This document shows positions 4,258 through 20,108 of a stretch of DNA of 20,108 nt, one piece after another. The stretch comes from a virus. Position numbers and translations under genes: made by a program. How positions within the stretch are numbered: the first letter of the stretch is position 1; every line of letters starts with the position of its first letter. The DNA is taken from positions 1 through 20,108 of the IMG/VR virus record IMGVR_UViG_3300020207_001472; one strand, written 5' to 3'. The notes under the pieces were generated by a model. It was given only the letters and a program-made list of their open reading frames with translations. It made no database searches and was not told the origin of the DNA.

Positions 4258-4261
4258 TCCT
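4258..4261 (-). promoter_or_regulatory. Ribosome binding site that fixes the nrdB start
   Basis: AGGA on the minus strand lies 6 bases before the ATG at 4251, in the short gap after the nrdA stop. It supports translation from the first residue of the glutaredoxin domain. The 34-residue extension encoded over the end of nrdA is therefore unlikely to be used. Confidence 0.65.
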
Positions 4262-4270
4262 GTTTTTCTA

Positions 4271-6061
4271 TCATCCTTCGCAGGCGATGCACTCATCTTG
4301 TTGTTCCTCCGAGCCGTTGCTGAACTTAATTGAGTCTGGGTTAATAATATCATCTAACTTTTCACGTTCGATTTTTTGCGATACATTCTCTGCACGGTTA
4401 GATGTTTCTGTTCTTAAATAATATAGTCCTTTACATCCTTGTTTCCAAGCTTGGTAATGTACTTGATGTAAGGTTCTTTTATCAGCTCCAGCAGGGAAGA
4501 AGATATTTAGCGACTGACCTTGACATAGGTACTTTTGTCTTTCTCCTGCTAATCGTATAAGAGCTAACTGATTAATTTCAATTGCTGTTTGGAATACCTC
4601 TTTCACATGGTCATGTAAAAAATCTAGGTGTTGCACTGAACCACCGTTTGTAATAATCGTTGACCATACCTCTTCGGTATTCTTTCCAATTTTTTCCAAT
4701 TCTGCTTCGAGATATGGATTTTTATTTAGGTGAGATCCCACCCTTGTTCTAGAAGTAAATGCATTTGCTTTCCAAGGTTCAATACTTGGACTTGTATTTA
4801 CAATCATAGAACTATTTGCGTTTGGAGCAATAGCTAACATATGAGCGTTACGACGACCTGTTCCTTTCATATCAGGAGCTTCACCTCGACGCTTACCCAT
4901 TTCTAAAGTAGCTGCTAATGCTTCATCTTTAATATGTTTAAATATTGCTTCATTAATACCAACAGCCTGTTCGCAGTCAAATGGTACTGAATGCTTTTGT
5001 AGATACGAATGAAAACCCATCGCACCTAAACCTAATGATCTTTCTTGTTGTGCTGAATATCTTGCTTTGCTAATTTCGTCGCCTGCATGGTCAATAAAGA
5101 ACTGTAATACGTTATCTAAAAATACAGTTAAGTCTTTGACCATCGGAGTGCCAACCCATTCGTCATACTTTTCAAGGTTAACCGATGATAAACAACATAC
5201 TGCTGTTCTATCTTCAGAGGTCACTAAATGAATTTCATTACATAGGTTAGACCCCTTAATTGTTAAACCCTTTGCCTTTTGTGCATCAGGTAAAGCACGG
5301 TTTGCTGTATCAATAAAGTTAAGATACGGTTCACCTGTTCTATAACGTGTTTCTAAAATCAACTCCCATAGTTTACGAGCTGACATTGTATCACGGACTG
5401 ATTTGTCATTTGGGTCTAATAAGTTCCAATCAGAACCTGACTCAACCGCTTCCATAAATTTGTCTGTAATATTCACTGCGTGGTGTAAATTTAAATTCTT
5501 ACGGTTTACATCACCTGTAGGAATACGCATATTAATAAATTCTACAATGTCAGGATGGTCAACATCCATATATGCAGCATAAGAACCTTTTCTTGTTCTT
5601 CCTTGACGGTAAGCAACCATATCAGCATCAACAGTATGTAAGAACGGCATAGGTCCTGGAGCTTTCTTTGATACAGCACGAATATCAGACCAATGACCAC
5701 CTACTCCACCACCTTTAACAGATAGCCACCTAAGTTCTGCGGTATGGTCTATAAGACCGTCTAATGTGTCTGGAACATAAGTAAGAAAGCAGCTGATTGG
5801 TAATGCTTTAATTGGTTCTCCTTTAATTGGGGCATTTGATAAGACAGGAGATGCATACATAAACCAGCCTTTTGAAACGTAATCATAAATTCTCTGTGCA
5901 AGTTTTAAATTACCATTACAAAAAGCAACTGCTGCTCGAGCATATGCCATCTGAGGTGACCTTTCATCGTCACGACAATAGTAATCTTTTAACAATTTAA
6001 ATGATTGTTCAGAAAGATCCTTATCTCTCTTTGTTTCAATTTCAATACCTAAGTGCTGCAT
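4271..6061 (-). CDS. nrdA: Class I ribonucleotide reductase alpha subunit
   Basis: A 596-aa catalytic subunit. The active-site set is complete: C91 (LPISCF) and C289 (AVCCL) for the redox pair, N272, C274 and E276 in SNLCNEI for radical chemistry, and Y547-Y548 (LYYLRT) for radical transfer. The C-terminal tail carries a closely spaced CIAC pair (C591, C594), which would shuttle reducing power from glutaredoxin. It is much shorter than E. coli NrdA because the N-terminal ATP-cone allosteric domain is missing: the protein starts almost directly with the helical region. That predicts a lack of dATP feedback inhibition, useful to a phage that needs high dNTP pools. Its Shine-Dalgarno (TAAGGAG) overlaps the thyX stop codon, with 5 bases to the ATG. 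It sits between thyX and nrdB in one operon. Confidence 0.95.
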   Translation of the reverse strand: MQHLGIEIETKRDKDLSEQSFKLLKDYYCRDDERSPQMAYARAAVAFCNGNLKLAQRIYDYVSKGWFMYASPVLSNAPIKGEPIKALPISCFLTYVPDTLDGLIDHTAELRWLSVKGGGVGGHWSDIRAVSKKAPGPMPFLHTVDADMVAYRQGRTRKGSYAAYMDVDHPDIVEFINMRIPTGDVNRKNLNLHHAVNITDKFMEAVESGSDWNLLDPNDKSVRDTMSARKLWELILETRYRTGEPYLNFIDTANRALPDAQKAKGLTIKGSNLCNEIHLVTSEDRTAVCCLSSVNLEKYDEWVGTPMVKDLTVFLDNVLQFFIDHAGDEISKARYSAQQERSLGLGAMGFHSYLQKHSVPFDCEQAVGINEAIFKHIKDEALAATLEMGKRRGEAPDMKGTGRRNAHMLAIAPNANSSMIVNTSPSIEPWKANAFTSRTRVGSHLNKNPYLEAELEKIGKNTEEVWSTIITNGGSVQHLDFLHDHVKEVFQTAIEINQLALIRLAGERQKYLCQGQSLNIFFPAGADKRTLHQVHYQAWKQGCKGLYYLRTETSNRAENVSQKIEREKLDDIINPDSIKFSNGSEEQQDECIACEG

Positions 6062-6742: not shown

Positions 6743-7765
6743 CTATGTCCTTTTCCATTGTTGAAATTTCAATTTAGCCTCTAAACCTTTATAAGTAATT
6801 GTTCTCATTAAACTCTCTACACATTTTATATTACCGCTAAGAACCATTTCATTGATGTCCTTCCCAGGTATATCGTTTGGCCATATTACAATCTGATGAC
6901 CCATGTCAATAATTTTTTCCATACGCTTATGAATCTCGCGATTACGAGGTTCAGCGTCAAACACAAAGACGGCATTCCCTACATGGTCAAGTGCATTCGT
7001 ATTGCCATCGGCTCCTGCCATCGCAACAGCGTTTGATAAAAACATACTATCCAACGCACCTTCGACCACGTAATACTTTTCTTTAAAGTTTACTTTGTCG
7101 AGTCCAAATATTTTAGGTACTTCATCAAACATGATGGTAATATACCTAAGGCCCTCAGGGTCAAACCCTCGAGCTGAGACTCCGAAACATTTTCGGTCTT
7201 TGTCTAAAAAAGGAATAACTAAGCGAGGCTCGTCTTTCTTTACGTTCTCGAACTTATTTGGAATGATTCCGTTAATCCATTCTTTAAATCTTGGTGCGAA
7301 ATAAAGACGGTAATGATGCTTAGAAGGAATACTCCTTTTATCTATATATTTCTTTACTGGGTGATTATGTGGGAGCTGACTGATTTTTTTTAAGTTTTTT
7401 AAGACATCACTGTGAGAGAATTTTGGTTGCTCAAATTTAGTATCATCTAGAGTTGATGTTTCTGTTTTTGGAGCATTGTTTGCATTGTTGATAAATTTCT
7501 CTGCGACATAATCATTGTAGGAAATGGGGTCGACTGCTCTAAGAAAGTTGGAAAAGGAATGACTTTCACCGCAGTTATGACAGTAAAAGTAAAAGTTGTT
7601 TTCTTTCTCAAGCAGCCAACCCCGAGCTTTAGATTTACTTTTCTTTGAGTCACCACAAATGGGACAACGAAAGTTAATCTTGTAAGGGTTACGATTCGTT
7701 ATTTTGTATCTGTCCAGGCGACCAGCCAAATGCTGTGCGTACTGAATATCCACAAAGTCAAGCAT
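6743..7765 (-). CDS. 61: DNA primase, T4 gp61 type
   Basis: A 340-aa primase that makes RNA primers for lagging-strand synthesis, normally with the gp41 helicase (not in this window). An N-terminal zinc-binding domain has CPIC (C34, C37) and CHNC (C62, C65). The TOPRIM core follows: VVEGALDS with E235 and D239, then VFVFDAEP with D270 and E272, then D303 in GKDINEM. The length is close to T4 gp61. The ATG at 7765 has only a weak GGA about 10 bases upstream. The gene is the first after the perfect promoter at 7801-7829 and so opens the DNA-precursor and metabolic operon. The C-terminal 30 residues are basic. Confidence 0.9.
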   Translation of the reverse strand: MLDFVDIQYAQHLAGRLDRYKITNRNPYKINFRCPICGDSKKSKSKARGWLLEKENNFYFYCHNCGESHSFSNFLRAVDPISYNDYVAEKFINNANNAPKTETSTLDDTKFEQPKFSHSDVLKNLKKISQLPHNHPVKKYIDKRSIPSKHHYRLYFAPRFKEWINGIIPNKFENVKKDEPRLVIPFLDKDRKCFGVSARGFDPEGLRYITIMFDEVPKIFGLDKVNFKEKYYVVEGALDSMFLSNAVAMAGADGNTNALDHVGNAVFVFDAEPRNREIHKRMEKIIDMGHQIVIWPNDIPGKDINEMVLSGNIKCVESLMRTITYKGLEAKLKFQQWKRT

Positions 7766-7800: not shown

Positions 7801-7829
7801 ATTATATACTAATATAGGTGAGATGTCAA
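7801..7829 (-). promoter_or_regulatory. Perfect sigma70-type promoter for the replication/metabolism operon
   Basis: On the minus strand a consensus -35 TTGACA (7829 to 7824) and consensus -10 TATAAT (7806 to 7801) are separated by exactly 17 bases. Transcription would start near 7794 and run into the primase gene, about 29 bases before its ATG. Such a full match suggests recognition by the unmodified host RNA polymerase. The -35 element is embedded in CCATTGACAT, a decamer shared with the second promoter at 8385-8413. Confidence 0.85.
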
Positions 7830-7830
7830 T

Positions 7831-7851
7831 GGTTATTTTTGAAAAATAACC
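7831..7851 (-). repeat. Inverted repeat at a gene end, possible weak terminator
   Basis: Two 10-base arms, GGTTATTTTT and AAAAATAACC, flank a single central base. With a realistic loop the RNA stem would be about 8 pairs. It covers the stop codon of the gene at 7833-8363 and stops 1 base before the -35 box of the next promoter. No run of U follows it, so a classical intrinsic terminator is doubtful. It may instead protect the 3' end of the transcript from the upstream promoter. Confidence 0.5.
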
Positions 7852-8363
7852 GATAGGTCAGCATAGTTTAAAATGAAAGTGATAATTGCGAATGCTCCTA
7901 GCATCCACCACTTTAGATTTTCCAAAGAACGGATTTGTTGTTCTTGTATGTTTACTTTATCTTTAACGTCACGTACTATATTATCAATAATTGCCAAAGT
8001 TTCAGTATGTCTTCTTTCGTGTGCAGCTTTTGTTTCTTCTGCCATTACACGATGTTGTTCTTTGCCTTCGACCATTGCATTTAACATTTCTTCTTTGAAA
8101 GCTTGCTTGTATTCATCAAGTTCTTCCTTCATAGCAAGACGAGCTTCCATGTTCATGCGTCTTTGGTCGGCAAGCCTTTCATCCATGTATTCAATTTTGG
8201 TCTGAAAGTTCTCCATGATTTGCTGCTGCACAGCAAGGGACTTGGCAATGTCTGCCATCCCATCTACTGCTTCATCAACCTTATCAAAGAATTTTCCAAT
8301 TGATTGGATGTCTTTTTTAATAAGGGCAATATCGGTCTTAACGTGGTTAAGGTCGTCAGACAT
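7833..8363 (-). CDS. Coiled-coil protein with C-terminal membrane anchor (holin-like candidate)
   Basis: A 176-aa protein of unrecognised family. Residues 1 to about 145 are charged and strongly helical with heptad-like leucines, rich in Met, Glu, Lys and Arg. One hydrophobic helix at about 149-167 (WWMLGAFAIITFIL) follows, then a short tail. The layout recalls XhlA-type lysis-associated proteins, with a soluble coiled coil followed by one anchor near the C terminus. It sits just after the spanin pair, so a lysis or lysis-timing role is possible but not shown. It has its own perfect promoter (8385-8413) and a good Shine-Dalgarno TGGAG. An inverted repeat covers its stop codon. Being the only gene between two strong promoters suggests high or early expression. 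Confidence 0.75.
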   Translation of the reverse strand: MSDDLNHVKTDIALIKKDIQSIGKFFDKVDEAVDGMADIAKSLAVQQQIMENFQTKIEYMDERLADQRRMNMEARLAMKEELDEYKQAFKEEMLNAMVEGKEQHRVMAEETKAAHERRHTETLAIIDNIVRDVKDKVNIQEQQIRSLENLKWWMLGAFAIITFILNYADLSVIFQK

Positions 8364-8384: not shown

Positions 8385-8413
8385 ATTATACCACTAAATC
8401 CATTATATGTCAA
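8385..8413 (-). promoter_or_regulatory. Second perfect sigma70-type promoter
   Basis: On the minus strand consensus -35 TTGACA (8413 to 8408) and -10 TATAAT (8390 to 8385) lie 17 bases apart. Transcription would begin near 8378, about 15 bases before the ATG at 8363. The -35 lies in CCATTGACAT as in the promoter at 7801-7829. Bases 8400-8416 also form a 5-base inverted repeat (CCATT and AATGG, 7 apart) around the -35 box, which could be an operator. Confidence 0.85.
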
Positions 8414-9605: not shown

Positions 9606-9613
9606 TATTTATA
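9606..9613 (-). promoter_or_regulatory. T4-type late promoter box TATAAATA
   Basis: TATAAATA on the minus strand overlaps the endolysin stop codon and ends 31 bases before the ATG at 9575. This is the consensus -10-like element used by T4 late sigma factor gp55. The same box at the same distance precedes the gene at 12684-12983. A few chance copies are expected in DNA this AT-rich, so the repeated spacing is the main support. Confidence 0.55.
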
Positions 9614-10437: not shown

Positions 10438-10890
10438 TTAACCGTAATTAGCTTCCCAATCAGTTCTTGGGAAATTAGCAAAAGATTTTAATTTACCTAA
10501 CTCGTTTACCATATCGCTAAAATCTATTTCCTTTGGCTCAACGCCTCTTGGAAGTTGTGGATTTTTACCTGAAAAGCCAGGATAGATATCTAATGCAAAA
10601 TCTAAATTACCACCACCGACTTTCAATCTTTCGCCTTTAGCAACATCCATAGGACCAACTAAAACTTCCTCTTCTTTAAATCTCATTCCTAATTTTTTGA
10701 AATGCTTTTCTACAATTTTTAAAGCGGCTTTAACATCTTTAATAACAGGTGCTGATACATTATCTGCATGCATTGCTTCCTGCTTGATTTTAAATTGTGC
10801 TCTAAATCCTGTAAGAGGTGCATCACGAAACGGCGGCTTATGTGTAAACTTTTCGTCTATTGTTTCTTCCCACTGTTTAAAAGATTTCAT
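10438..10890 (-). CDS. Hypothetical protein with capsid-targeting-like leader
   Basis: A 150-aa protein without a recognised domain. It begins MKSFKQWEETIDE, a leader like that of T4 internal proteins (MKTYQEFIAE), where the prohead protease gp21 cuts after an (I/L)xE motif. Here the likely cut is after E13 (IDE). The mature part is basic in the first half (about 50-75, Lys-rich helix KAALKIVEKHFKKLGMRF) and ends acidic. It has no cysteine or membrane segment. Shine-Dalgarno AAGGAAGAG is strong. At least four other proteins in the window share this kind of start, so I infer it is packaged inside the head. Function is unknown. Confidence 0.75.
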   Translation of the reverse strand: MKSFKQWEETIDEKFTHKPPFRDAPLTGFRAQFKIKQEAMHADNVSAPVIKDVKAALKIVEKHFKKLGMRFKEEEVLVGPMDVAKGERLKVGGGNLDFALDIYPGFSGKNPQLPRGVEPKEIDFSDMVNELGKLKSFANFPRTDWEANYG

Positions 10891-10906
10891 AACTCTTCCT
10901 TTTTAA

Positions 10907-11665
10907 TTAACCTGCAGCTGAACCCATAGCTTGTTTTGCCGCAGCACGCTCTTTATCGCGTTCTTGTTTACGTTTCTCACGCTCTTTTTCGACTTCGTCT
11001 TGATTCTTTTGCCTTTCGGCTTCAGCAGCGTGCTTTAACTTAATTCTTTCTTTTTCTTTCTCTTGACGTTGTTTCATTAACTCGACTTCAGTTGCTTGCC
11101 TTGCTTTTAGCTGAGCTTGTGCAACCGCATCTTCATCAACCATTATTGCGCCAATCAAATCACGAACACGTTTCTTGTGTTTCTTTTGATTCTTTTTAGA
11201 AACGCCGGGTTCACCTTGAGGACCTACTCCTAGGCCGGCAATGTTTCCACCACCTACACTATTTACAGGTTCTTCTTCCATTTCACGTTTTGCTATTTCA
11301 GCAATAACCGCGCCGTATTCATCCAAGAATCTTTTTAAAGCCAATTCCAAATCTTCATCAACAGATTCTTCTGTTAAATAATTTGTAGCTTCAATTCTTT
11401 GCTGCTCTTTAATTAACCAAAGAGCTGCTGCATAACTTGCCAGTTTTGTTTGACCACCAGGTAGTTTACTTAAAAGCTTTTTGATATTTAATATCATTTG
11501 GTCAAACACACCAAAAGCTTTCTTTTGCTCATTCTTACCAAAGTCCTTACGCTTAATGAGAATATTGCCTTTTTCATCAATGATTCCCAACTTATAAGCA
11601 GGCCACTTATTAAAAGGTTTTACCAACCTCTTAATAAAAGAATAAGCTAAAAATAAATCTACCAT
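10907..11665 (-). CDS. Conserved phage protein with C-terminal coiled coil
   Basis: A 252-aa protein of a type I recall from many marine T4-like phages, without assigned function. The N-terminal domain (about 1-110) has the conserved pattern LFLAYSFIKRLV...KLGIIDEKG and LPGGQTKLASYAAALWLIKE. A glycine-rich linker with a collagen-like piece (GVGPQGEPG) lies at about 138-155. Residues 160-252 are highly charged, with long runs of Lys, Arg, Glu and Gln, and should form a single long helix or coiled coil. The ATG follows the stop of the next gene upstream at once, with Shine-Dalgarno AAGGAAA. It is probably a virion or assembly protein, as judged by its neighbours. Confidence 0.78.
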   Translation of the reverse strand: MVDLFLAYSFIKRLVKPFNKWPAYKLGIIDEKGNILIKRKDFGKNEQKKAFGVFDQMILNIKKLLSKLPGGQTKLASYAAALWLIKEQQRIEATNYLTEESVDEDLELALKRFLDEYGAVIAEIAKREMEEEPVNSVGGGNIAGLGVGPQGEPGVSKKNQKKHKKRVRDLIGAIMVDEDAVAQAQLKARQATEVELMKQRQEKEKERIKLKHAAEAERQKNQDEVEKEREKRKQERDKERAAAKQAMGSAAG

Positions 11666-12040
11666 TTATATTTCCTTAAGCCTTAGTTTGATAAGTTCAT
11701 CTCCTTTAATAGAATCTGAATTTATCATCATATCATCGTATACTAATACCTCAGGCATAAAATTTAAATACTCCACGAATGGTTTTAAATACTCGTGATA
11801 TTCGTGCAACCTCATGAATAACATGTTCGTTGCGCCTGGACCAAACACATTGAATATTACAATGAGATGGTTCAAAATCAACCTTTCTTTCAATTCAGAA
11901 TCTTGCCTATAACGACTGAAGAGTTTACGAAGATATTGAAATCTTTTAATATCCTCTTCGAACTCCGACATCTCAGTACACTGAGGATTGTCATAGTGTT
12001 TCATCGCATATAGCAGAAAGGTTGATTCTGTCAAATTCAT
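11666..12040 (-). CDS. Conserved small phage protein of unknown function
   Basis: A 124-aa protein whose sequence pattern (TESTFLLYAMKHYDNPQC, then LKERLILNHLIVIFNVFG) I recall from many marine T4-like phages, always paired with the coiled-coil gene that follows here. It is helical, with a hydrophobic central helix (about 53-66) too mixed to be a clear membrane anchor. There is one Cys at residue 21. No Shine-Dalgarno is apparent. A weak hairpin with a T-rich tail lies just upstream of the start. The pair is probably co-translated, as one stop and the next start are adjacent. Role unknown, perhaps in tail or head completion. Confidence 0.75.
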   Translation of the reverse strand: MNLTESTFLLYAMKHYDNPQCTEMSEFEEDIKRFQYLRKLFSRYRQDSELKERLILNHLIVIFNVFGPGATNMLFMRLHEYHEYLKPFVEYLNFMPEVLVYDDMMINSDSIKGDELIKLRLKEI

Positions 12041-12043
12041 AAC

Positions 12044-12071
12044 AATAAAAGGCTAACTATTTAGAATTAGC
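12044..12071 (-). terminator. Weak terminator-like hairpin
   Basis: On the minus strand a 5-base stem (GCTAA with TTAGC; 12067-12071 and 12052-12056) closes a 10-base loop and is followed by CTTTTATT. It overlaps the stop of the 98-aa gene. The stem is short and AT-rich, so termination would be partial at best. Confidence 0.3.
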
Positions 12072-12363
12072 TGTCAGCTACAACTGTATCGTCACCAGTT
12101 CCTGTCACACCTAAGTCACCAGCATCAACTGCAGATACCTTCATAGGTACCAAGCATTCTGCATAATGACGTCCGTTTGATGTGTGGTATAACCACCAAC
12201 CAGGACCTTTGAGACCTTTAGCTCTGTTAGCAGCAACACCTGCCTCTGTTAAGTCAACGAATACTGCGTTGTCTTTATCATGAGACTTGTTAGTGTTATC
12301 TGCACTGTCTTCGAGCCACTTAGGTACGGAAGCTGCCGCGTCTGTTTTTCCCCATAGTGCCAT
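12067..12363 (-). CDS. Conserved small phage protein, likely virion-associated
   Basis: A 98-aa protein. The start MALWGKTDAAASVPKWLED, and the middle VFVDLTEAGVAANRAKGLKG with GPGWWLYHTSNGRHYAE, resemble a family I recall from T4-like marine phages and some jumbo phages, where it is listed as a structural or hypothetical protein. It has no transmembrane segment, two tryptophans at residues 76-77, and an acidic Asp/Gly/Val/Thr tail (about 80-98). A strong Shine-Dalgarno AAGGAG precedes the ATG, consistent with high expression of a virion component. Its upstream gap contains a 16-base palindrome. Function is not established. Confidence 0.75.
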   Translation of the reverse strand: MALWGKTDAAASVPKWLEDSADNTNKSHDKDNAVFVDLTEAGVAANRAKGLKGPGWWLYHTSNGRHYAECLVPMKVSAVDAGDLGVTGTGDDTVVADS

Positions 12364-12383
12364 TGTTATCTCCTTGTTTTATT

Positions 12384-12399
12384 TTATTAACGTTAATAA
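12384..12399. repeat. 16-base perfect palindrome TTATTAACGTTAATAA
   Basis: A perfect dyad in the 43-base gap between the 83-aa and 98-aa genes, 8 bases from the Shine-Dalgarno of the latter. A dyad without spacer fits a protein-binding site better than an RNA hairpin. The surrounding bases are nearly pure A and T. Confidence 0.6.
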
Positions 12400-12406
12400 T
12401 AAATTT

Positions 12407-12658
12407 TTATTTTAGAACTTTATATAGTTCATCGACTAAGTCGGCTTTCTTTTTACGTTTGTCCAACTCAATTCCTGCCTTACGACCTTCAGCCTCAAGT
12501 CCAGCTTTTGTTAGTTTACCTAACGCAGCTTTAGTAACTTTAGGACCTTTAGCAACAGCAGCCTTTTTAGGTTCTGCTTTTGCTTTTACAGGTTGTACTT
12601 TAGCAGGAGCTTTGTCTTCAACACCAAAAAGCTTTTTAATCCAATCAATCAAAAACAT
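12407..12658 (-). CDS. Small basic protein with SAP/HeH-like C-terminal domain
   Basis: An 83-aa protein in three parts. An N-terminal amphipathic stretch (MFLIDWIKKLFGV) comes first, then a Lys/Ala/Pro/Val linker (about 15-45) typical of flexible nucleic-acid-binding tails. The C-terminal helix-loop-helix (about 46-83: L-x-K-A-G-L-E-A-E-G-R-K-A-G-I...K-A-D-L-V-D-E-L) matches the spacing of SAP/HeH/Rho-N-type DNA or RNA binding motifs. I infer nucleic-acid binding, possibly DNA condensation in the head. Shine-Dalgarno AGGAG precedes the ATG. The protein is strongly basic in contrast to its acidic neighbour at 12684-12983. Confidence 0.72.
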   Translation of the reverse strand: MFLIDWIKKLFGVEDKAPAKVQPVKAKAEPKKAAVAKGPKVTKAALGKLTKAGLEAEGRKAGIELDKRKKKADLVDELYKVLK

Positions 12659-12667
12659 AATTTACTC

Positions 12668-12681
12668 CTATTATATAATAG
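12668..12681. repeat. 14-base palindrome CTATTATATAATAG
   Basis: A perfect dyad in the short gap after the 99-aa gene. On the minus strand its last two bases (AG) run into the Shine-Dalgarno AGGAG of the 83-aa gene, and it contains a TATAAT on each strand. It may be a chance AT-rich dyad, a small RNA structure touching the ribosome site, or a -10 element. Confidence 0.4.
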
Positions 12682-12683
12682 AA

Positions 12684-12983
12684 TTAACTGCCGCAGTTGC
12701 TAGCAGCTAATTTCTTTTTCTTTGCATCAGGCTCGAGAGTATCAGATGCTTCTGTCTCATCGAGGTCTTCTGCCTTTTCGTTGTCTCCTTTCCAGTTTGC
12801 ATCAACGTAATTAAAGAATTCTTTCTTCTTCTCATCGTCGAGCTCTGCTGGAGATTCAACTCCAAACTTTTTCAAAGCAGCTTGGAAAAACTTTTCATAT
12901 TCTTCCTTGTCGCCAGATTCGGCTTCTAATTTAGCCATAACCTTTTGCTCAATCTTGCTTTCAATAATTTCCTTCCAATCCAT
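12684..12983 (-). CDS. Small acidic phage protein, likely head-assembly related
   Basis: A 99-aa very acidic protein. The segment EEYEKFFQAALKKFGVESPA followed by ELDDEKKKEFFNYVDANW (about 27-64) is a recurrent module in T4-like marine phage proteins, as I recall it. The tail is Asp/Glu-rich, then Lys-rich, ending in NCGS. There is no membrane segment or signal peptide. A TATAAATA box lies 31 bases before the ATG and AGGAG is well placed, so late expression is likely. An assembly-core role is inference. Confidence 0.72.
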   Translation of the reverse strand: MDWKEIIESKIEQKVMAKLEAESGDKEEYEKFFQAALKKFGVESPAELDDEKKKEFFNYVDANWKGDNEKAEDLDETEASDTLEPDAKKKKLAASNCGS

Positions 12984-13013
12984 TTTGGACTCCTAATTCT
13001 TGTTTAATATGTT

Positions 13014-13021
13014 TATTTATA
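13014..13021 (-). promoter_or_regulatory. T4-type late promoter box TATAAATA
   Basis: TATAAATA on the minus strand overlaps the stop codon of the cupin-like gene and ends 31 bases before the ATG at 12983, the same geometry as the box at 9606-9613. It matches the gp55 late promoter consensus of T4. The shared distance makes it more credible than an isolated match. Confidence 0.58.
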
Positions 13022-13358
13022 ACAGTTTGGTTATTCTAACTTCCAAATTGTTTACACCTTTAATTAATCTATGGTATTCACCTTTTCTTATTGTAAAGCC
13101 AATACCGGGTTTTAATAATACAGGTAAAGAGCCTTCAGGTTGAAATTGCCAACCATCTCCACTCAATACTTCAACAATTCTATCTTCATTATCTCTATGC
13201 CAAACAAACTCTTCATCGGATTGTTCAACATCAAATATACGAATATCTTCTATATCCTTATATGGCTTACCAGAAATAATCTCCGCCACCTTTGAGTCCC
13301 AATTCTTTTGCGTACTTCGGTAATCGACATGCCCAGTATCCTGCACTGAATTTGTCAT
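13017..13358 (-). CDS. Small cupin-like phage protein, start uncertain
   Basis: The conserved part, from about 13276 leftward, reads as a compact beta-rich protein: EFVWHRDNEDRIVEVLSGDG, then LPVLLKPGIGFTIRKGEYHR and a final L-E-V-R-I. The alternating strands with H-R and Y-H-R positions fit a double-stranded beta-helix (cupin) fold, and similar short proteins are common in T4-like marine phages as I recall. The start is a problem. The first in-frame ATG near the domain (13358) overlaps the DUF5872-like gene by 92 bases. No Met exists after that gene's stop. A GTG at 13283 is another option. A +1 frameshift from the preceding gene would join the two. Function is unknown; the longer frame to 13514 looks spurious. 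Confidence 0.6.
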   Translation of the reverse strand: MTNSVQDTGHVDYRSTQKNWDSKVAEIISGKPYKDIEDIRIFDVEQSDEEFVWHRDNEDRIVEVLSGDGWQFQPEGSLPVLLKPGIGFTIRKGEYHRLIKGVNNLEVRITKLL

Positions 13359-13638
13359 CTTTAGTATCGCAATTATGTCTTGATGCAAAGTTCGCCGCTG
13401 CCTCTCTATCATTAATTTTAGCAGTGAGTCCACCTTTTTCATCACCGAACTCAATTTTTTTAATATTACCTGTGTCAGGGTTTCTAACATAGACAACATA
13501 TTTCTTATCTCCACTTGAACGCTTTGGTTTATTTAATTCAGGTTCTTCGTCAAGTTCAATCATCGGAGTTTCTAAAGGAACGGTCACTCCTTCATATAGT
13601 CCGAAGTTTTCGTATTTCCAATCTGCTATCTTTTTCAT
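13267..13638 (-). CDS. DUF5872-like phage protein
   Basis: A 123-aa protein. After an N-terminal part of about 40 residues comes a well-known phage module: KKYVVYVRNPDTGNIKKIEF (residues 45-64), then F-G-D and FASRHNCDTKD...SAGYWACR, with cysteines at about residues 90 and 104. I recall this as DUF5872, found in many T4-like phages, alone or fused to other head proteins. Function is unknown. The start MKKIADWKYENFGLYEG could be a variant internal-head leader, with LYE then G as the cut site. Its ATG overlaps the stop of the ATP-grasp gene by one base (TAATG). The downstream cupin frame overlaps its 3' end. Confidence 0.78.
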   Translation of the reverse strand: MKKIADWKYENFGLYEGVTVPLETPMIELDEEPELNKPKRSSGDKKYVVYVRNPDTGNIKKIEFGDEKGGLTAKINDREAAANFASRHNCDTKDDKFSAGYWACRLPKYAKELGLKGGGDYFW

Positions 13639-15086
13639 TAGTGATCCGATGGGTCGTTTCTTGCTGTTTTGTTTGATAATATAAATCGCCTATTTGGATT
13701 CACAGCAACTTTAAATTTTGTCATTAACTTTCTATTCACTAACATCTCTGATGCGGTATCTTTTAAAGACAATCCAACTTCAGCAATATGCTTTTTATTA
13801 TTAAAGAATATTTCGCGCTCAATTACTGGTCTTTCATCAAATGCTTTTTGACCTCTCATTGGTTTTGAGATGTATAATATCTTATCTTCAAACTTGTATC
13901 CGTTCTTTTCCCAAGTAACTTTACCGTTTTTCATTTCCATTTTATCAACGTGCAACATACTTGCTTGTGCACTATTACCCGTATCAAACTTTGCACGGAC
14001 AGGATTCTTTTCCATACCTTTAAATATAATCGTTTCTATATATCCTGCTTCTTGTCTAAATACAGGCCTACGATTAACATCTTTAGCAAAGAATTTAATT
14101 ATTCTTTCTAATACTTCTTTATCTGTAATTTTACCTTGTCTCTCTTCAGTCCAAGGATCATATCCTTCAAAGTGAGAACGAATACCAGGTGAACCGTTTA
14201 CTTCCAAGATATAAGGTTTGCCGTCAACCATTGCGTGGTCAACTCCACAATACATTGCACCACTTGCACGAGCCGCTGCTTTAATTACAGCAATTTCTTT
14301 AGGTGATAATTTATATGGTTCTGTTGTTGCACCGAGGTGAACGTTATTTCTAAAGTCTTTGTTTTCCTTTTCACGAATCCTTTCTGCTGATGCCAATATT
14401 TTACCACCAATTACAAGGGTACGTATATCAGAATTCATTTCTTTAAATTCTTGTAATAACAAATCAGCGTTATATTTCCATAAAGCTTGACATACACCTT
14501 TGAGAGATGATTCACTGTCAACCTTCATAACACCAACACCTTGTGTACCTTTCAAGGTTTTTACAATAACAGGGAATTTACCACCGACTCTTTTATGCGC
14601 ATCTTGAATAGATTGTTCGTTTGATATAATTGATGTTTTTGGAATCGGAATATTGTTTCTTTCCATCATTAAAGCATTGGACATTTTGTTATCACAAACT
14701 AACATTGAATCCAAATCGTTGACAACTAAGAAACCAATATCTTGTAAAGAAGAAACCATTGATTGGGAGGATAAAGTCTCAATGGCTCCTGCTCTAACAA
14801 AGATAATTGAATTATGAATTTCTGCTTCGCAGTCGTTGTCTTTTCCGTCAATATTACGAATCTTTACAGAACCGATGTCAATATCAGAACCAGCAATCCA
14901 AGCTTTCTTAACATCAACAAAGTCGTATCGTATATCTCTTTTAGTACATACTTCTTCCATTAGGCCTGCGAAAGTTTTTTCACCTTCACCTGTACCTAAT
15001 ACAACACAATGTAATTCGTCAAAGCTTAGTTCAGAACTGGCTTCTTCCTCTAATAGGCGACTTCTGTATTCAGATATACTTTTCAT
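13638..15086 (-). CDS. RimK-type ATP-grasp ligase fused to retropepsin-like domain
   Basis: A 482-aa fusion. Residues about 125-335 are an ATP-grasp ligase close to RimK glutamate ligases: VIVKTLKGTQGVGV (173-186) for ATP binding, FRNNVHLG (245-252), D283, and metal ligands in EVNGSPGIR (295-303). Residues about 345-475 resemble the RimB/RimK-associated retropepsin-like protease: a catalytic-type DTG at 368-370, S-L-H-like contacts, then EVGLSLKD and a closing R-R-F-I-L-S. In bacteria RimK adds glutamates to ribosomal protein S6 and RimB trims them. Here both are one chain. The N terminus MKSISEYRSRLLEE looks like a capsid-targeting leader with an LxE cut site, which suggests packaging in the virion. 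The target is unknown. It has no clear Shine-Dalgarno. Confidence 0.85.
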   Translation of the reverse strand: MKSISEYRSRLLEEEASSELSFDELHCVVLGTGEGEKTFAGLMEEVCTKRDIRYDFVDVKKAWIAGSDIDIGSVKIRNIDGKDNDCEAEIHNSIIFVRAGAIETLSSQSMVSSLQDIGFLVVNDLDSMLVCDNKMSNALMMERNNIPIPKTSIISNEQSIQDAHKRVGGKFPVIVKTLKGTQGVGVMKVDSESSLKGVCQALWKYNADLLLQEFKEMNSDIRTLVIGGKILASAERIREKENKDFRNNVHLGATTEPYKLSPKEIAVIKAAARASGAMYCGVDHAMVDGKPYILEVNGSPGIRSHFEGYDPWTEERQGKITDKEVLERIIKFFAKDVNRRPVFRQEAGYIETIIFKGMEKNPVRAKFDTGNSAQASMLHVDKMEMKNGKVTWEKNGYKFEDKILYISKPMRGQKAFDERPVIEREIFFNNKKHIAEVGLSLKDTASEMLVNRKLMTKFKVAVNPNRRFILSNKTARNDPSDH

Positions 15087-15106
15087 AATATTAATTTCAA
15101 CAGGTT

Positions 15107-16228
15107 TTACTTCTTACGCTTATTCGCAGGAAGGCTATCGTCTAATGCTTTTTCAACTTCTTTATATTGCCTGATATATTGTAAGGATCCGTATTGTACC
15201 TTTTCTAATTTTTTGAATTCTCTTTTAACCTTTGGGTCTTTAGATGAACGCATATCAGACAAATCGTATCTTGCTTTCAATTCTTTAAGAAGATTTTCTT
15301 CAGCAATAATATCGTTTCTTGTTGGTGTAAAACTTGCATTTAGAATAATATCAATAAAGTCTTCCATATCTTCATCGTCGTTACGGACTTCACCGTTATC
15401 CAATGCCCAAGTTAATAATTCATCTTCAACATTTTTAGGTAAATCTTTACGACCTTTTTGGAATGCGTCAATATGTCTTGCATGTTTCTTAATAAGTTTA
15501 CGCCACTCAGATGCGCGGAAACCAAACATGTTTTCAACTTCTCTAACACCTTCGAGTAATTCTGGGAAAAGATCTTCGATATCTTCATCGTCCATTGCAT
15601 ATGCATCACCTTGTAAGAACTTAACAATATCGCCTTTCTTACCAGTGACATCAGCCATTTGACGTCCTGTCATTTTAATTTTAATTTTATGCTTTCTTTC
15701 TGACTGTGAACGATCACTTGAATTACCGATATAGTCAATATCAATCGTTGCTAATTCGTTTGGCTTTTTGACTCTTAACTTTTCAGTTATAACCGATTCG
15801 TCCAAAGAAAGTGTAAATGCTTCTTCGTTAACATCTTCGATAATATTACCTTCCATAATAGAATCAACTGCAAGTTTAGAAACTTTTAATAAATCTTTCT
15901 TTTCGCCATTTAATTCTACAGTAAAGACTGTTGAACTACCTAGTTTAATACCTGTAGGCGGATTAGCATCTACAACTCTACTAGCTTTACTATAAAATTT
16001 CTTAGCTTCAGGCATGGTGTTAAACCAATAACCTACATTAGCTTCTTCAAGAGATTCTTGTACTTTGTCCTGATACGGATATCCTTTACCTTTTAAAGGC
16101 TCAGCTTCAGGCGAAAGTATTTGTTTAGCCTTTTCGTAAGCTAGCTTAGCAAGCTTTTCTTTAAATTCTTTGGTGCGGCCGTCAATAGTCTTTTTGATTT
16201 CCGCATCCATTCTTTCTTTTCTATCCAC
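15107..16228 (-). CDS. Conserved hypothetical phage protein
   Basis: A 373-aa protein without a recognised domain. The N-terminal 40 residues are a charged helix rich in Lys and Glu. A mixed alpha/beta part follows (about 60-190). An acidic patch lies at about 210-225 (MDDEDIEDLFPELLEG), and the rest is charged and helical with a very basic end (PANKRKK). One SLEE-A sequence near residue 62 could be a prohead-protease site. The start is a GTG at 16228, supported by GGAGG five bases upstream, which overlaps the preceding stop codon. The first ATG, six codons later, has a poorer site. There is no membrane segment. Neighbours on both sides carry capsid-leader-like starts, so a head role is likely but unproven. 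Confidence 0.75.
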   Translation of the reverse strand: MDRKERMDAEIKKTIDGRTKEFKEKLAKLAYEKAKQILSPEAEPLKGKGYPYQDKVQESLEEANVGYWFNTMPEAKKFYSKASRVVDANPPTGIKLGSSTVFTVELNGEKKDLLKVSKLAVDSIMEGNIIEDVNEEAFTLSLDESVITEKLRVKKPNELATIDIDYIGNSSDRSQSERKHKIKIKMTGRQMADVTGKKGDIVKFLQGDAYAMDDEDIEDLFPELLEGVREVENMFGFRASEWRKLIKKHARHIDAFQKGRKDLPKNVEDELLTWALDNGEVRNDDEDMEDFIDIILNASFTPTRNDIIAEENLLKELKARYDLSDMRSSKDPKVKREFKKLEKVQYGSLQYIRQYKEVEKALDDSLPANKRKK

Positions 16229-16229
16229 G

Positions 16230-16613
16230 TTATCCTCCGAATTCGTGTCCTGCGACTCGCTTCATTTGTTTCTTAAATTCAGCAAAGTCAGGTTTTGATT
16301 TATATAATTTAATAGAAAGGTGGTCTTTATCTTTGCCTTTAATGCGCCAATTATAGCCGTCCTTTTTATGTTCTGGTTTTGTTGTTTTTACAACACGTCT
16401 TTTGAATCCATCTTCCCACGATTCGGATCCTTCGTCAAGTTTACCACCTGCAGCGGTAAAGGCTGCGATTGCCATATCTCGACGCTTTTCTTTGTCTGCA
16501 TCTTTAAATTGTGGAGCATCTGATTTCATAAAGTCATCAATCCAAGCTCCGAGTCCATCAGAGACTTTTAACTTTTCTTCTAAATTTTCTAAAAGTTCTC
16601 TGAACGTTTTCAT
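16230..16613 (-). CDS. Small internal-head-type protein
   Basis: A 127-aa protein. It begins MKTFRELLENLEE, a T4 internal-protein-like leader with an LEE cut site at residues 11-13. The next part, GLGAWIDDFMKSDAPQFKDA (20-39), followed by K-E-K-R-R-D-M-A-I-A-A, is a module I recall from several T4-like marine phage proteins, including prohead core proteins. A second candidate cut lies at about residue 61 (KLDE then G). The C-terminal half is basic (about 70-127, many Lys and His), as expected for a DNA-facing head protein. It starts directly after the stop of the 533-aa gene. Exact function is unknown. Confidence 0.76.
   Translation of the reverse strand: MKTFRELLENLEEKLKVSDGLGAWIDDFMKSDAPQFKDADKEKRRDMAIAAFTAAGGKLDEGSESWEDGFKRRVVKTTKPEHKKDGYNWRIKGKDKDHLSIKLYKSKPDFAEFKKQMKRVAGHEFGG
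16234..16238 (-). promoter_or_regulatory. Ribosome binding site supporting a GTG start at 16228
   Basis: GGAGG on the minus strand overlaps the last codons of the 127-aa gene and is 5 bases from GTG. It is the strongest Shine-Dalgarno in this part and favours the GTG over the ATG at 16210. Confidence 0.65.
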
Positions 16614-18215
16614 TTAATCTCTATCCATATCTATGATACCGTCATAATGTCCTCTTTCGATACCACCCATGTAATCAAATATTGCATCTTCAGCACTTCT
16701 TAGACTTTGATGTATTGCATGTGGATTACCAATTCTAGGTGTTCCACCTGTTTCAGCAGTGTATTGCATATCGTCTTGCATCTTTGCTATTTTTACAATT
16801 GCACTATGCATGGTCTTTAAAGCTCTGAGTTCTTTCTTTCTATCGAACTCTTTACCTTCAAACTTAGTAGGTTTATACTGAGGTATTCTTGCTTCTTGTA
16901 AGCCTTCGTTTCCTATTACCTGTGTTTCTTCAGGCAATATCTTCATAAGCTTATCACTATTCTTTTTAATCAGATTTGATAAATCGCGACCAAACATAGG
17001 ACTTGGAGAAGAAAGCGTTGTATGTTCTTTATCCGTTTGTTGTTTATTAACATAAGCATCGTGTTTTTTCATTAATTGTGCCAATCCTAATTTTGTAATG
17101 GCATCATACATTAATGTAGATATAACTATTCTTGCTTCGTTTAAATTGTCTTCTTCTTCTTTAAGCTTTGCTAAATATTGCATTGCTTTCTTTTCTTGGT
17201 CAAACTTGCCGTGATCTTTTCCGTTAACTTTTAAATGAAATGTTGGTTTTGTAGAAGGACCTGATTTAGTAATTTCAATCTTTCTACCGTCACGATTAAA
17301 TTTCATTTCAATAATTGATTCTTCGTGTAATCCATCAGTTGCTTTTAGAAACTTTAATAGATTTCCACTATTACCACCATCATCAACACTTAGGTAATAA
17401 TAATCTCTTCCTGTTTCACTATCTGTTTTCATTCCTAGTTGTTGTGCAATCTTTTCAGCCTTAGATAGATTTACTGCTTTATCAAATACAAATCTATGAC
17501 GCATTTCGTTAAGACCTTCACGAGTTAAACGATTGTTCTTAACCATTCCATTCTTGTTGAATAAAGTAATCATACCGTCACGAACGTCAGTGTCCAATTT
17601 GTCAATATAATACTTCATTTGAATAAACAGTTGGTCTTGTTTATTTACATTAGAGTTTTTACCGATATCACGAAGGAATCCGGCAACTCTCAGAAAGTCC
17701 TTCTTATCTATACCGCCATGCTTTCTTGCATAATTTTCAAATTCTTTTGCGACCTTAAACATGTCAGCTTCTTGTAAATCTTCGTTAACAATTTTACTTA
17801 CTCTATCGCCTTGTTTTGCTTTAGGATACATTGCCTTTAATAACGCGTTATATCCAACGACAACATTTAGTAAATCGCCTTGAATTTCTAAGGTACTAAT
17901 ACCTCGCATTACTTTCTTTGCACCTTCGATATCTCTCTTCTTTAGTGCAGCAGCAAGAGCTAAATAATCTTTCTTATTTTGACCTGATTCCTGGCGTGCC
18001 AATCGCTCAATGTTTTTATAAGCAAGCGTTAAATCCTGATTTAAATTTTCCACAACAACAGTATGAGGTCTACCGTTGATATGAACAATAGGATTACCAT
18101 TCTTATCTACGTTGCCGTCCCAGACTCCGTCTTTATGAGCCTTTCTTGCCTTTTTAACTAGAGGATGAGTTTCTAAACTCCTTACCTCATTTAATGCTTC
18201 TCTTAATGATTTCAT
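16614..18215 (-). CDS. Large head-type protein with repeated prohead-protease-like sites
   Basis: A 533-aa protein with no recognised enzyme domain. It begins MKSLREALNE, which has the same length and cut position as the T4 internal-protein leader MKTYQEFIAE. Further L-x-E motifs, several followed by Ala, are spaced through it: DLQE149-A, GLNE237-M, GLHE298-E, NLNE360-A and GLQE441-A. Cutting at all would give pieces of about 139, 88, 61, 62, 81 and 92 residues. Several pieces begin with a new helical unit, for example ADMFKVAKEFENYARKHGG. It is Lys-rich overall, without Cys or membrane segments. Its ATG overlaps the stop of the 225-aa gene by one base (TAATG), with AAGG about 11 bases upstream. 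I infer a precursor of internal head proteins; the polyprotein idea is untested. Confidence 0.78.
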   Translation of the reverse strand: MKSLREALNEVRSLETHPLVKKARKAHKDGVWDGNVDKNGNPIVHINGRPHTVVVENLNQDLTLAYKNIERLARQESGQNKKDYLALAAALKKRDIEGAKKVMRGISTLEIQGDLLNVVVGYNALLKAMYPKAKQGDRVSKIVNEDLQEADMFKVAKEFENYARKHGGIDKKDFLRVAGFLRDIGKNSNVNKQDQLFIQMKYYIDKLDTDVRDGMITLFNKNGMVKNNRLTREGLNEMRHRFVFDKAVNLSKAEKIAQQLGMKTDSETGRDYYYLSVDDGGNSGNLLKFLKATDGLHEESIIEMKFNRDGRKIEITKSGPSTKPTFHLKVNGKDHGKFDQEKKAMQYLAKLKEEEDNLNEARIVISTLMYDAITKLGLAQLMKKHDAYVNKQQTDKEHTTLSSPSPMFGRDLSNLIKKNSDKLMKILPEETQVIGNEGLQEARIPQYKPTKFEGKEFDRKKELRALKTMHSAIVKIAKMQDDMQYTAETGGTPRIGNPHAIHQSLRSAEDAIFDYMGGIERGHYDGIIDMDRD

Positions 18216-18892
18216 TATTTTATTACCTTTGCTAAATCAGCTAATGTCATAGTATTAATATTACCAAACTCATCAACTGTGCCAAACTTTAATACACCGC
18301 CGTCAATTCTTGGTTTAATACTATAAGCAGAACCCATTTTCTTTCCTGGGATATTGTGGATAGTCCCATCTTTGTCTAATTTTAATTTTTCTCTATGACT
18401 TGGATTTTTATTTCCTAATGCTTCATCAATTGTTGATTCATCAAGATCTTCATCAAACATACCTGAGGCTTTCATATGAGCAAGAGCATCTTTCTTTACC
18501 TTTTCAGCATTTGCCCTATTGAGTTTCTCAACTGCTTGTTTGATTAATAGTAATCTTTTCTTTTTCTCAGCAGGAGACATTGCTTCTTGAACATCGTCCT
18601 TAAGACCGCCCATCATTTTGCCATACATATTTCCTTTGGCAGACTTATGAGACATGCTTGAACGTGATTTACCTGAAGCTTTACGTTCACGCTCTTTATC
18701 TTTTTTGATTTCAGCTGCGGTAGGTTTGCGATATGCTTCGTCTATACCTGTTAATACGTCTTTAAAAGTTTTCATCTTTTTCCCTTTGGTAATTTCTTGA
18801 CCCGGAGTGTCCTTTTGTAATCTTGCACGAGCCTTATCAGTTCCCCAATCTCCGGCTCCACCAGTTTCGTTTAATTTATTTATATCATCCAT
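18215..18892 (-). CDS. Lys-rich head-type protein with two possible starts
   Basis: A 225-aa protein from the ATG at 18892, which overlaps the preceding stop by one base (TAATG). A second ATG at 18775 has a much better Shine-Dalgarno (AAAGGGA, 5 bases away) and begins MKTFKDVLTGIDEAYRK, a typical capsid-targeting-like leader with an IDE-A cut. This gives a 186-aa form. Further candidate sites are DVQE-A and TIDE-A in the middle. The body is basic and helical (KKKRLLLIKQAVEKLNRA and similar), and the C terminus is a small beta-rich unit with KLDKDGTIHNIPGKKMGSAY. The first 39 residues are polar and contain GGAGDWGTDKARARL and DTPGQ, which look like genuine coding sequence. Both starts may be used. 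Function is unknown. Confidence 0.72.
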   Translation of the reverse strand: MDDINKLNETGGAGDWGTDKARARLQKDTPGQEITKGKKMKTFKDVLTGIDEAYRKPTAAEIKKDKERERKASGKSRSSMSHKSAKGNMYGKMMGGLKDDVQEAMSPAEKKKRLLLIKQAVEKLNRANAEKVKKDALAHMKASGMFDEDLDESTIDEALGNKNPSHREKLKLDKDGTIHNIPGKKMGSAYSIKPRIDGGVLKFGTVDEFGNINTMTLADLAKVIK

Positions 18893-20108
18893 TATTTAAC
18901 TTTATCAGCCAAGTCTTTATCAGCTTTACCCCAAGTTCCTGGTGATTTTGTAGCAAAACTATTTACTCTTGCTAATCCCCACTGAACAGGAGTTGTCCCA
19001 GGTCTGTGACCTGTTCTCCATGCAGCAACACCTCGGTCAAATACCTTTCTTAAAATTGCTAAAGGCATTCCACTCTTTTCTGCTTTATCTTTTAAAGCTT
19101 TCTCTGGGCTACTATCTTCATTTACAAATTCTATTTGCTCAATTAAATTATATAATTCATTAATCTTTTGTTCTGTAATTTCGGCTTCAACTTCAGCTCT
19201 TTGTTTTTCAACAGCTTCCATTTCTTTTGCTTTGCCGTACATTTTAAATCTATAATCAAAATTTACAGTATTATCTTGTCTTAGTAATTGGTGAGGTCTT
19301 TTTAAACCTGCGCGTTCCATATTGCCTTTAACTGCTTCACCAAACATTTTCTTAAATTTATTTGAATGCTTGGATGGTTTTGTATCAGCAGTTGCATCGC
19401 CAGGAGCAGGTTTGTAAGCATTAGGATTGTCATCATCCATCTTGGCTTGCTTTGCGAATTGTGCTTGTCTTTTATCTTTTGTAGAACCACCTAGGCCTTT
19501 ATAATATCCAGGCTGCTGCTTTTGTTTCTTTGATTCTTTATCGTCTTCTTTTTGTAAACGTTCTTGAATAGAAGCTGCTCGATATAAATCTGGATTAACT
19601 TCTTCATTTGCATGTCTTAATGCTTTTTGAACTTCGGGATGTTTTGAAAGGTTTCTTTTGAGTTTATCAATTTCTTTAATTGCGTAATTCATATTACCTG
19701 AAAGGTCTAACGCAATCTCAATTCCTAACTTAACTGTTTTATCGCGATTGGCTGCAGACTTTGCTCTAGGATTATTTTTATAATATTGAGCAACCTCAGC
19801 ACCTGTTAGTTTTGTTTTACCCATAGGTGATAAAGGATCCACTTTACCATCTTTAACTCTTTCAGCAAGGAATTGGTCTACAGCAAAATTTAACTGTTCG
19901 TTAATACCCATTCCTTTACGAACATCATTAAATAAAGATTTAATAATAGATTCGTTTCTTGTAGGTACACCTTTTTTGAAATTTACATAATCGTTATCAG
20001 CGGCATAACCTCTCATCTTACTCGCTGACATTCCTGAAACATCGTCAGCATCGGGATCTCTGTCACCAGCAGATACAACATTAATATCATCAAATGTATA
20101 ATCTTTTC
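18892..20108 (-). CDS. DUF5824-type phage protein, 5' end beyond the window
   Basis: The frame stays open to the right edge of the window, so the gene is partial. The Met at 20031 is probably internal: sequence before it reads as normal coding (DDINVVSAGDRDPDADDVSG) and the only AGGA there is too close. At least 405 residues are present. The C-terminal 60 residues form a compact module, SGMPLAILRKVFDRGVAAWR, then TGHRPGTTPVQWGLARVNSF, which I recall as DUF5824, common in T4-like phage proteins. The middle is long, charged and rich in Lys and Gln. A helical pair (about 285-300 of the visible Met frame) has E-I-T-E and F-V-N-E sites that could be cut by a prohead protease. It is likely a virion or head protein. 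Confidence 0.78.
   Translation of the reverse strand, partial: KDYTFDDINVVSAGDRDPDADDVSGMSASKMRGYAADNDYVNFKKGVPTRNESIIKSLFNDVRKGMGINEQLNFAVDQFLAERVKDGKVDPLSPMGKTKLTGAEVAQYYKNNPRAKSAANRDKTVKLGIEIALDLSGNMNYAIKEIDKLKRNLSKHPEVQKALRHANEEVNPDLYRAASIQERLQKEDDKESKKQKQQPGYYKGLGGSTKDKRQAQFAKQAKMDDDNPNAYKPAPGDATADTKPSKHSNKFKKMFGEAVKGNMERAGLKRPHQLLRQDNTVNFDYRFKMYGKAKEMEAVEKQRAEVEAEITEQKINELYNLIEQIEFVNEDSSPEKALKDKAEKSGMPLAILRKVFDRGVAAWRTGHRPGTTPVQWGLARVNSFATKSPGTWGKADKDLADKVK

Follow-up and report, generated by a model that had tools for sequence, protein, structure and literature searches.

Phage T4 places its internal proteins IPI, IPII and IPIII, together with Alt, in the head by means of an N-terminal capsid-targeting sequence (CTS), in which mutational work assigned residues 4 and 7 to targeting and residues 8 and 10 to cutting by the head protease gp21, whose cleavage motif is L/I-X-E (PMC9026906). 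Cyanomyovirus virions contain “regulatory” proteins (cytidylyltransferase/NMNAT, APH-like kinase, SAM hydrolase), for which the available parts of the papers report no leader or packaging route (PMC10665884, PMC9602691, PMC9146016). Polyvalent proteins are multi-domain proteins thought to be delivered with the invading DNA, their parts being freed by proteolysis that is ascribed to built-in peptidase domains (Iyer et al. 2017, PMC5512222). In the giant phages SPN3US and phiKZ, the prohead protease cleaves paralogous head proteins, identical at their N termini, behind xxE and at several places in one propeptide (PMC5694885, PMC10052503). Here, we analyze a 20,108-nucleotide stretch of viral DNA (IMG/VR record IMGVR_UViG_3300020207_001472, positions 1 to 20,108), which we call the window: a 20-kb fragment of that record whose genes, analyzed on the minus strand, include a cluster encoding proteins with CTS-like leaders. 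Taking all parts of the explanation together, we consider it likely that a T4-like marine myovirus expresses this locus late, as a cargo operon.

For comparison, 57 related marine viral contigs were retrieved via the RimK-like gene of the cluster; these homologous sequences are not independent, and the counts were corrected by deduplication only. One 156-kb relative, contig G001, carries gp21, gp22, gp23 and portal genes in T4-like order and encodes a RimK-like protein 87% identical to that of the window. The nearest isolates are three T4-like Kyanoviridae phages, the Pelagibacter phages Mosig and HTVC008M and the Methylophilales phage Melnitz. An initial annotation of the window had proposed that at least five proteins share a leader resembling that of T4 internal proteins, with a doubtful sixth (13267-13638, MKKIADWKYENFGLYE). 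We expressed this resemblance as a T4-derived rule, under which a protein must begin M[KRQN][STKRNG], have hydrophobic residues 4 and 7, and contain an [LI]xE whose E falls at residue 8-16. All six N termini lie where that annotation placed them and pass the rule, the doubtful one included (MKTFKDVLTGIDE, MKSLREALNE, MKTFRELLENLEE, MKSISEYRSRLLEE, MKKIADWKYENFGLYE and MKSFKQWEETIDE). Across the set, the E of the leader lies at residues 10, 13, 13, 13/14, 13 and 16 (values not in the order of this list). The passing genes all fall within 10438-18775 on the minus strand (starts 18775, 18215, 16613, 15086, 13638 and 10890), and the other 22 of the 28 window genes fail. Shuffling of residues 2-20 yielded 0.0009 matches per protein, or about 0.03 expected in the window versus 6 seen. 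Among control genes of four T4-like genomes, 3 of 548 pass (G001 outside the cluster, 2/162; Mosig, 0/155; HTVC008M, positions 1-49 kb, 0/54; Melnitz-3 outside its cluster, 1/177), and 42 of 343 distinct N termini in the related contigs do so versus 0.6 expected. Of the T4 internal proteins encoded in the segment that we examined, IPII and IPIII conform to the rule and IPI, with its E at residue 19, does not. The leader motif greatly exceeds chance expectation and is restricted to the cluster. A nucleotide pattern for the leader, applied to the window's own record, proved useless.

The window set displays every membership feature of the T4 internal proteins that we tested: a leader with hydrophobic residues 4 and 7, an [LI]xE cut site, gp21 (in G001), a leader shared by unrelated and fast-changing bodies, and a late promoter. 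T4 IPI begins MKTFKEFTSTTTPVSTITE/A, close to MKTFKDVLTGIDE/A of the window (slashes mark cut sites, predicted for the marine phages). What follows the leader differs, as the window bodies are unrelated to those of T4 and the set adds enzymes, namely the RimK-like ligase and the nucleotidyltransferase. Among the leader-bearing bodies, Pfam and PHROGs assigned a family only to the RimK-like protein; 13267-13638 had a weak PHROG match. The sequences of the window proteins show no sign of signal peptides, homing elements or inteins, which were also considered.

The leader that the initial annotation placed at an internal start is present, but its ATG at 18775 lies inside the open reading frame (ORF) 18215-18892. 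A 39-residue extension (GGAGDWGTDKARARLQKDTPGQ...) that precedes this leader is kept in about half of the relatives; others begin directly at the leader, so that the true start may be either of the two. The extension (window 18776-18892) contains a GTD...TPGQ segment that in Melnitz (L061:14914-16866) and S-SZBM1 (L084:10390-11478) belongs to the nucleotidyltransferase, either internally or terminally, with a CTS-like stretch behind it in each case (MKTFKDVL, VSFKEHL and KKFSDY).

Among relatives, the leaders behave like exchangeable tags with respect to the sequences that follow them. In many relatives, the 10438-10890 locus encodes a different protein behind nearly the same leader; in one of these, MKSFKRWEETLNE matches MKSFKQWEETIDE at 10 of 13 residues and the bodies (window 10438-10890 and L009:11592-12083) share no BLAST similarity. 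Conversely, the C-terminal module of 16230-16613 (GSESWEDG...GHEFGG), preceded by MKTFRELLENLEE in the window, follows at least six other leaders in relatives (MKTFKQYCEAD, MKSFKQFLEAD, MLSYNQFVTE, MKSYSTFVTE, MKTFRDILESIEE and MLSYKQFVAE). The [LI]xE site of the RimK-like leader is kept in 17 of 17 variants despite a spacer that changes in sequence and length, and distant RimK homologues begin MQVQPFKNYLEE/A (Mosig) and MTQKFSQFITE/E (Melnitz). A DUF6267 protein encoded upstream in relatives begins MKSYNQYLAE/A or MKRFNEFLTE/A, near the T4 sequence MKTYQEFIAE/A. Leaders of this kind also appear elsewhere: a PAP2-superfamily phosphatase far from the cluster in G001 (L065:2383-3051) has the textbook leader MKTYKEYINED and is another cargo candidate, and a zeta-toxin/polynucleotide-kinase-like P-loop protein of Melnitz-3 (L062:16855-17523) begins MKTFAELQEGVYDPNIFKAIFLAGGPGSGKT, its HTVC008M counterpart beginning MIPFILKEGLYDPG, and may be a packaged kinase.

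Virion proteomes allowed us to compare the leader with independent data. In the cyanophage S-CREM2, 52 proteins were detected in purified virions (PMC10665884, Table 3), and its authors noted that contamination could not be excluded. We read 217 annotated genes of this genome and calculated P values among those not named structural. Under a looser form of the rule that was fixed before the genome was seen, 5 of 9 passing proteins were virion proteins versus 23 of 184 others (P = 0.004). Leaders in the exact T4 register were found on four proteins, all of them virion proteins: the SAM hydrolase (MKDFDSFLEE/F), a 78-residue protein (MKDLHSFLTE/Q), the APH-like kinase (MKRFDAFLTE/E) and the cytidylyltransferase (MKNFSSFLTE/A). 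This result has P = 3.7e-4, and P = 0.004 is the fairer figure because the register rule was written after the S-CREM2 sequences had been seen. The leader rule predicted virion proteins in an independent data set, which supports packaging. The virion protein ORF12 of S-CREM2 (L082:4205-6814), annotated as Cas9-like, has RFASFMAE/A near residue 19 and may start downstream of its annotated start.

The cyanophage “regulatory” proteins are linked to the window by the same kind of leader in S-CREM2 and by a homologous cytidylyltransferase encoded beside the cluster: the S-CREM2 family is homologous to the window-edge gene 18892-20031. Homologues of this enzyme occur in virions of several cyanophages (PMC3037559, PMC9602691, PMC9146016 and PMC10665884), including T4-GC190, a putative citidylyltransferase detected in S-SM1 virions (PMC3037559), and the virion cytidylyltransferase of S-SZBM1 begins MRFRQFIIE/A. 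In addition, the neighbouring head protein 12067-12363 (phrog_613) resembles, as judged by eye, the S-SZBM1 virion protein SSZBM1_136. Yersinia phage YerA41 has a RimK-family homologue among its particle proteins, which has no clear CTS-like start and therefore supports packaging of the enzyme family, not the leader. Leader-driven packaging is strongly supported by analogy with T4 combined with the S-CREM2 test, and we infer that it extends to the window phage itself.

The protease that would read these leaders appears to be conserved. The gp21 of G001 matches PF03420 (Peptidase_S77; E = 3.8e-37) and, aligned to T4 gp21, keeps the catalytic H, S and D. T4 gp23 is cleaved after E65 (PMC5694885), and this site aligns with LLSE/T in G001 and FLSE/A in Melnitz and Mosig. 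Since both the gp21 triad and the gp23 site are kept, the [LI]xE specificity of gp21 is very likely common to T4 and these relatives. With the motif statistics, the leader exchange and the S-CREM2 proteome, these alignments make head targeting by a T4-type leader, as first proposed for the window, well supported. Between the portal and gp21 genes of G001, in the place of T4 gp67/gp68, lies a gene for a 331-residue protein (L067:737-1732, MKNFKDLVSEVAQPKAP) that has a CTS-like start and no Pfam or PHROG match, a candidate core protein.

The initial annotation did not list two further properties of the cluster, additional [LIV]xE sites inside four of the proteins and a modular, polyprotein-like architecture. 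In the region bounded by the nucleotidyltransferase and RimK genes, the encoded proteins consist of small modules strung together in an order that differs among phages, and four window proteins look like module strings that gp21 could cleave. A module beginning MTHRFVFDK stands directly behind a leader in L003 and inside the 533-residue window protein after EGLNE/. Another (GIKDLKNYKDRNRRGEA...) stands behind a leader in L032 and L018 and internally after SVEVNE/ in L034, whereas in L056 it forms a fusion with another gene. Likewise, 13267-13638 has a body that corresponds to the end of a 650-residue Melnitz protein, with the junction LLE/G. Among nonredundant module starts, 63% lie within 8 residues of an [LIV]xE versus 30% of random positions (z = 6.1), and 46% versus 22% for [LI]xE (z = 4.6); the reversed motif E.x.[LI] (26% versus 23%) and [LIV]xD occur at chance level. 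These figures come from nonredundant breakpoints with unrelated flanks, which replaced an earlier breakpoint test that included divergence within close homologues and had small effect sizes. After the sites, A, G, S and Q are favoured about two-fold at P1', and [LIV]xE[AGS] reaches 8.6 per 1000 residues versus 3.6 in other genes of G001 (2.4 times). The module AMS[PED]xxKK...SGMFDE, counted after leaving out two regular-expression matches from other proteins, has [LIV]xE immediately before it in 14 of 14 contexts, whose upstream sequences differ, and [LI]xE after it in 12 of 12, where the distance varies. Fragments predicted from these sites are mostly 45-95 residues long, and many are basic (isoelectric point above 9).

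In AlphaFold models of the mosaics, [LI]xE sites fall in low-confidence stretches (mean predicted local distance difference test [pLDDT] score of 47 versus 61 overall for 16614-18215, and 40 versus 57 for 15107-16228), as expected if these are linkers, a fit qualified by shallow alignments, which lower confidence there too. A fold search with the 533-residue model returned common helical arrangements only (best Z of 7.4) and named no family. Residues 155-212 of 15107-16228 match a KH-like fold (Z of 6.7, root-mean-square deviation of 1.5, 53 residues aligned), most of the top matches being KH domains, which is suggestive only. In the 533-residue mosaic, the neighbouring modules at residues 57-149 and 150-237 seem to have diverged from a single helical domain by duplication (xNKKDY and xDKKDF; local score of 57 versus 26 +/- 5 for shuffles). 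A tblastn search of this mosaic against 50,697 phage records gave no match, and its modules are therefore known from metagenomes only.

Late expression is suggested by the T4 late promoter element TATAAATA, which occurs in the related contigs (522 kb) 136 times on the coding strand and 0 times on the other. In 17 of 17 relatives it lies 41-44 nucleotides upstream of the nucleotidyltransferase gene, with which the set begins, and it precedes the genes at 12684 and 9336 in 21 of 21 and 25 of 25 relatives. In G001 it precedes the gp21, gp22, tail tube and tail sheath genes. Because its count in the window alone is at chance level, the argument rests on conservation; as far as this promoter element indicates, the set is probably expressed late, with the head genes. 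Elsewhere on the minus strand of the window, two perfect 12/12 sigma-70 promoters (TTGACA-17-TATAAT; 7801-7829 and 8385-8413) stand directly before 6743-7765 (primase) and 7833-8363 and suggest an early or middle transcription unit beginning there.

We propose that the operon would be made late in infection together with the head proteins, and that each leader would bind the assembling prohead core through its hydrophobic residues 4 and 7. After closure of the prohead, gp21 would cut behind [LI]xE to separate body from leader. It would also act on [LIV]xE junctions within the mosaics, yielding modules of about 45-95 residues. These products and the enzymes would be sealed in the head with the DNA and would probably enter the next host with it, as T4 internal proteins do (PMC3012670, PMC9026906). 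For the exact window proteins, packaging and cleavage are what we would expect by extension. We also lean towards a broader idea, in which the head protease acts as a dispenser: cargo polyproteins would be shuffled as cassettes bordered by gp21 sites, and a module would need only a leader in front of it, or an [LIV]xE site on each side, to be packaged, freed in the head and delivered. If so, modules could be fused, split and reordered at no cost, and the rapid turnover of the locus among close relatives would be explained.

Other explanations share parts of this evidence. That the N termini have no role in targeting and reflect chance, or an overall bias towards MK[ST] starts, might be argued from the frequency of MKS and MKT starts in bacterial and phage genes and from the selection of examples by the initial annotation; it is already disfavoured by the composition-keeping shuffles and the control genes, and leader exchange and virion enrichment make it highly improbable. 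A more substantial alternative accepts targeting of the prohead core and regards the proteins as assembly or scaffold parts like gp22, gp67 and gp68, which would be degraded and lost in maturation without delivery, the internal sites merely aiding clearance. Gp21 does cut gp22, gp67 and gp68 to short fragments (PMC9026906, PMC5694885), a CTS-like protein (MKNFKDLVSE/V) is encoded at the gp67/gp68 position in G001, and multiple propeptide cuts are known in SPN3US. However, the predicted fragments are mostly longer than the small peptides lost from T4 heads, RimK-like and cytidylyltransferase enzymes of kinds that occur in mature virions belong to the set, and module content varies among close relatives as expected of cargo rather than scaffold. 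We regard loss during maturation as quite unlikely.

The mosaics could instead be uncut multi-domain proteins whose domains were joined by recombination at E-rich flexible linkers, only the N-terminal leader being cleaved. The linkers are acidic with low predicted order, E.x.[LIV] is enriched at breakpoints too, and internal cleavage is deduced from a sequence pattern alone. Against this, direction and spacing fit gp21, with enrichment of [LI]xE and not of E.x.[LI] or [LIV]xD; the P1' preference agrees; P3 and P1 are kept at all borders counted for the AMS module whereas P2 and spacing vary; and the 13267-13638 domain is a separate leader-bearing gene in the window and part of a fusion in Melnitz. 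Uncut mosaics seem to us rather improbable, and gp21 would be expected to use the internal sites. Several observations nevertheless weigh against a cargo operon with gp21-cut mosaics. The phage of the window is known only from a metagenomic fragment without head genes; no body resembles T4 IPI, IPII or IPIII; the mid-cluster gene 15107-16228 has no leader; and a canonical site is missing from some of the leader-like N termini of relatives (MKTFKQYCEADGCW, MKSFKQFLEADGCW). The linkers are E-rich, so that composition could account for some of the [LIV]xE enrichment; E.x.[LIV] is enriched as well, although E.x.[LI] is not. The AlphaFold models are of medium quality, as their overall scores indicate. 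In S-CREM2, besides the late formulation of the register rule, a strict rule with residue 3 restricted found only 2 cargo proteins (2 of 2 in virions, P = 0.02).

The window mosaics have up to ten internal [LI]xE sites, and T4 internal proteins, as described in PMC9026906, have none. Among published ideas, polyvalent proteins come closest to proteins delivered in several parts; here the sites match a separate head protease, the modules are much smaller units, and the proteins have a CTS-like leader. No Pfam domain was found above the cut-off in 16614-18215 or 15107-16228, the only protease-like domain (PF05618) being that of the RimK-like protein. In SPN3US and phiKZ, the propeptides are long, the motif is AxE, and the cuts remove a propeptide rather than separating several modules. 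A search of the open-access literature, with incomplete coverage, found no description of capsid-targeting leaders in marine T4-like phages or of prohead-protease-cut cargo polyproteins. The features of the locus are collected in Table 1. Outside it, the gene for the ribonucleotide reductase beta subunit (3043-4353) has a glutaredoxin-like domain (CPFC) fused to it or in frame before it.

Table 1. Features of the putative cargo locus and its surroundings in the window (aa, amino acids; slashes, predicted cut sites).
Feature	Position	Strand	Remarks
Nucleotidyltransferase (cytidylyltransferase-like), C-terminal part, cut by window end	18892..20031	-	Full-length homologue L019:5439-7220: phrog_3041 cytidyltransferase, PF01467; tblastn to cyanophage cytidylyltransferases
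Late promoter element TATAAATA	18877..18884; also 13014-13021, 9606-9613	-	T4-type
CTS-like leader MKTFKDVLTGIDE/A	18737..18775	-	Start 18775, internal to ORF 18215-18892; leader-first versions in relatives
Predicted basic module 1 of 18215-18775 protein, 51 aa	18584..18736	-	Ends DVQE/
Mobile module AMSPAEKK...SGMFDEDLDE, 49 aa	18437..18583	-	
C-terminal basic module of 18215-18775 protein, 68 aa	18218..18421	-	
CTS-like leader MKSLREALNE/V of 533-aa mosaic	18186..18215	-	
533-aa mosaic, candidate polyprotein	16614..18215	-	Module homologues in other contexts; AlphaFold model
Modules of 533-aa mosaic: aa 11-56, 57-149, 150-237, 238-303, 304-360, 361-441, 442-533		-	Separators VVE, LQE/A, LNE/M, IIE/M, LNE/A, LQE/A
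CTS-like leader MKTFRELLENLEE/K	16575..16613	-	
Two-module body KLKVSDG...KLDE / GSESWEDG...GHEFGG	16230..16574	-	
373-aa mosaic without leader	15107..16228	-	Own conserved N terminus aa 1-58; KH-like domain aa 155-212 (suggestive); several [LIV]xE junctions
CTS-like leader MKSISEYRSRLLEE of RimK-like protein	15045..15086	-	
RimK-like ATP-grasp ligase fused to PF05618 zinc-protease-like domain	13638..15086	-	PF08443 8.5e-33, PF05618 2.3e-7
CTS-like leader MKKIADWKYENFGLYE/G	13591..13638	-	
123-aa protein	13267..13638	-	Same domain is C-terminal end of 650-aa Melnitz-3 fusion with nucleotidyltransferase
Head protein neighbour (phrog_613)	12067..12363	-	
CTS-like leader MKSFKQWEETIDE/K	10852..10890	-	10/13 identical to leader of unrelated protein, same place in L009
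Body of 150-aa protein	10438..10851	-	Unrelated body instead in many relatives

T4-like phages are among the most abundant marine viruses, and the cargo that they carry beside their DNA is mostly unknown. With a readable leader and a published cutting rule, the question of whether an enzyme found in cyanophage virions is cargo or contaminant becomes testable from sequence alone. Use of the internal sites, if it occurs, would mean that a single capsid protease frees several cargo modules encoded by one gene, an arrangement for which we found no description among T4 or polyvalent proteins. The leader would also offer a route to fast-evolving anti-defence proteins that have no homologues.

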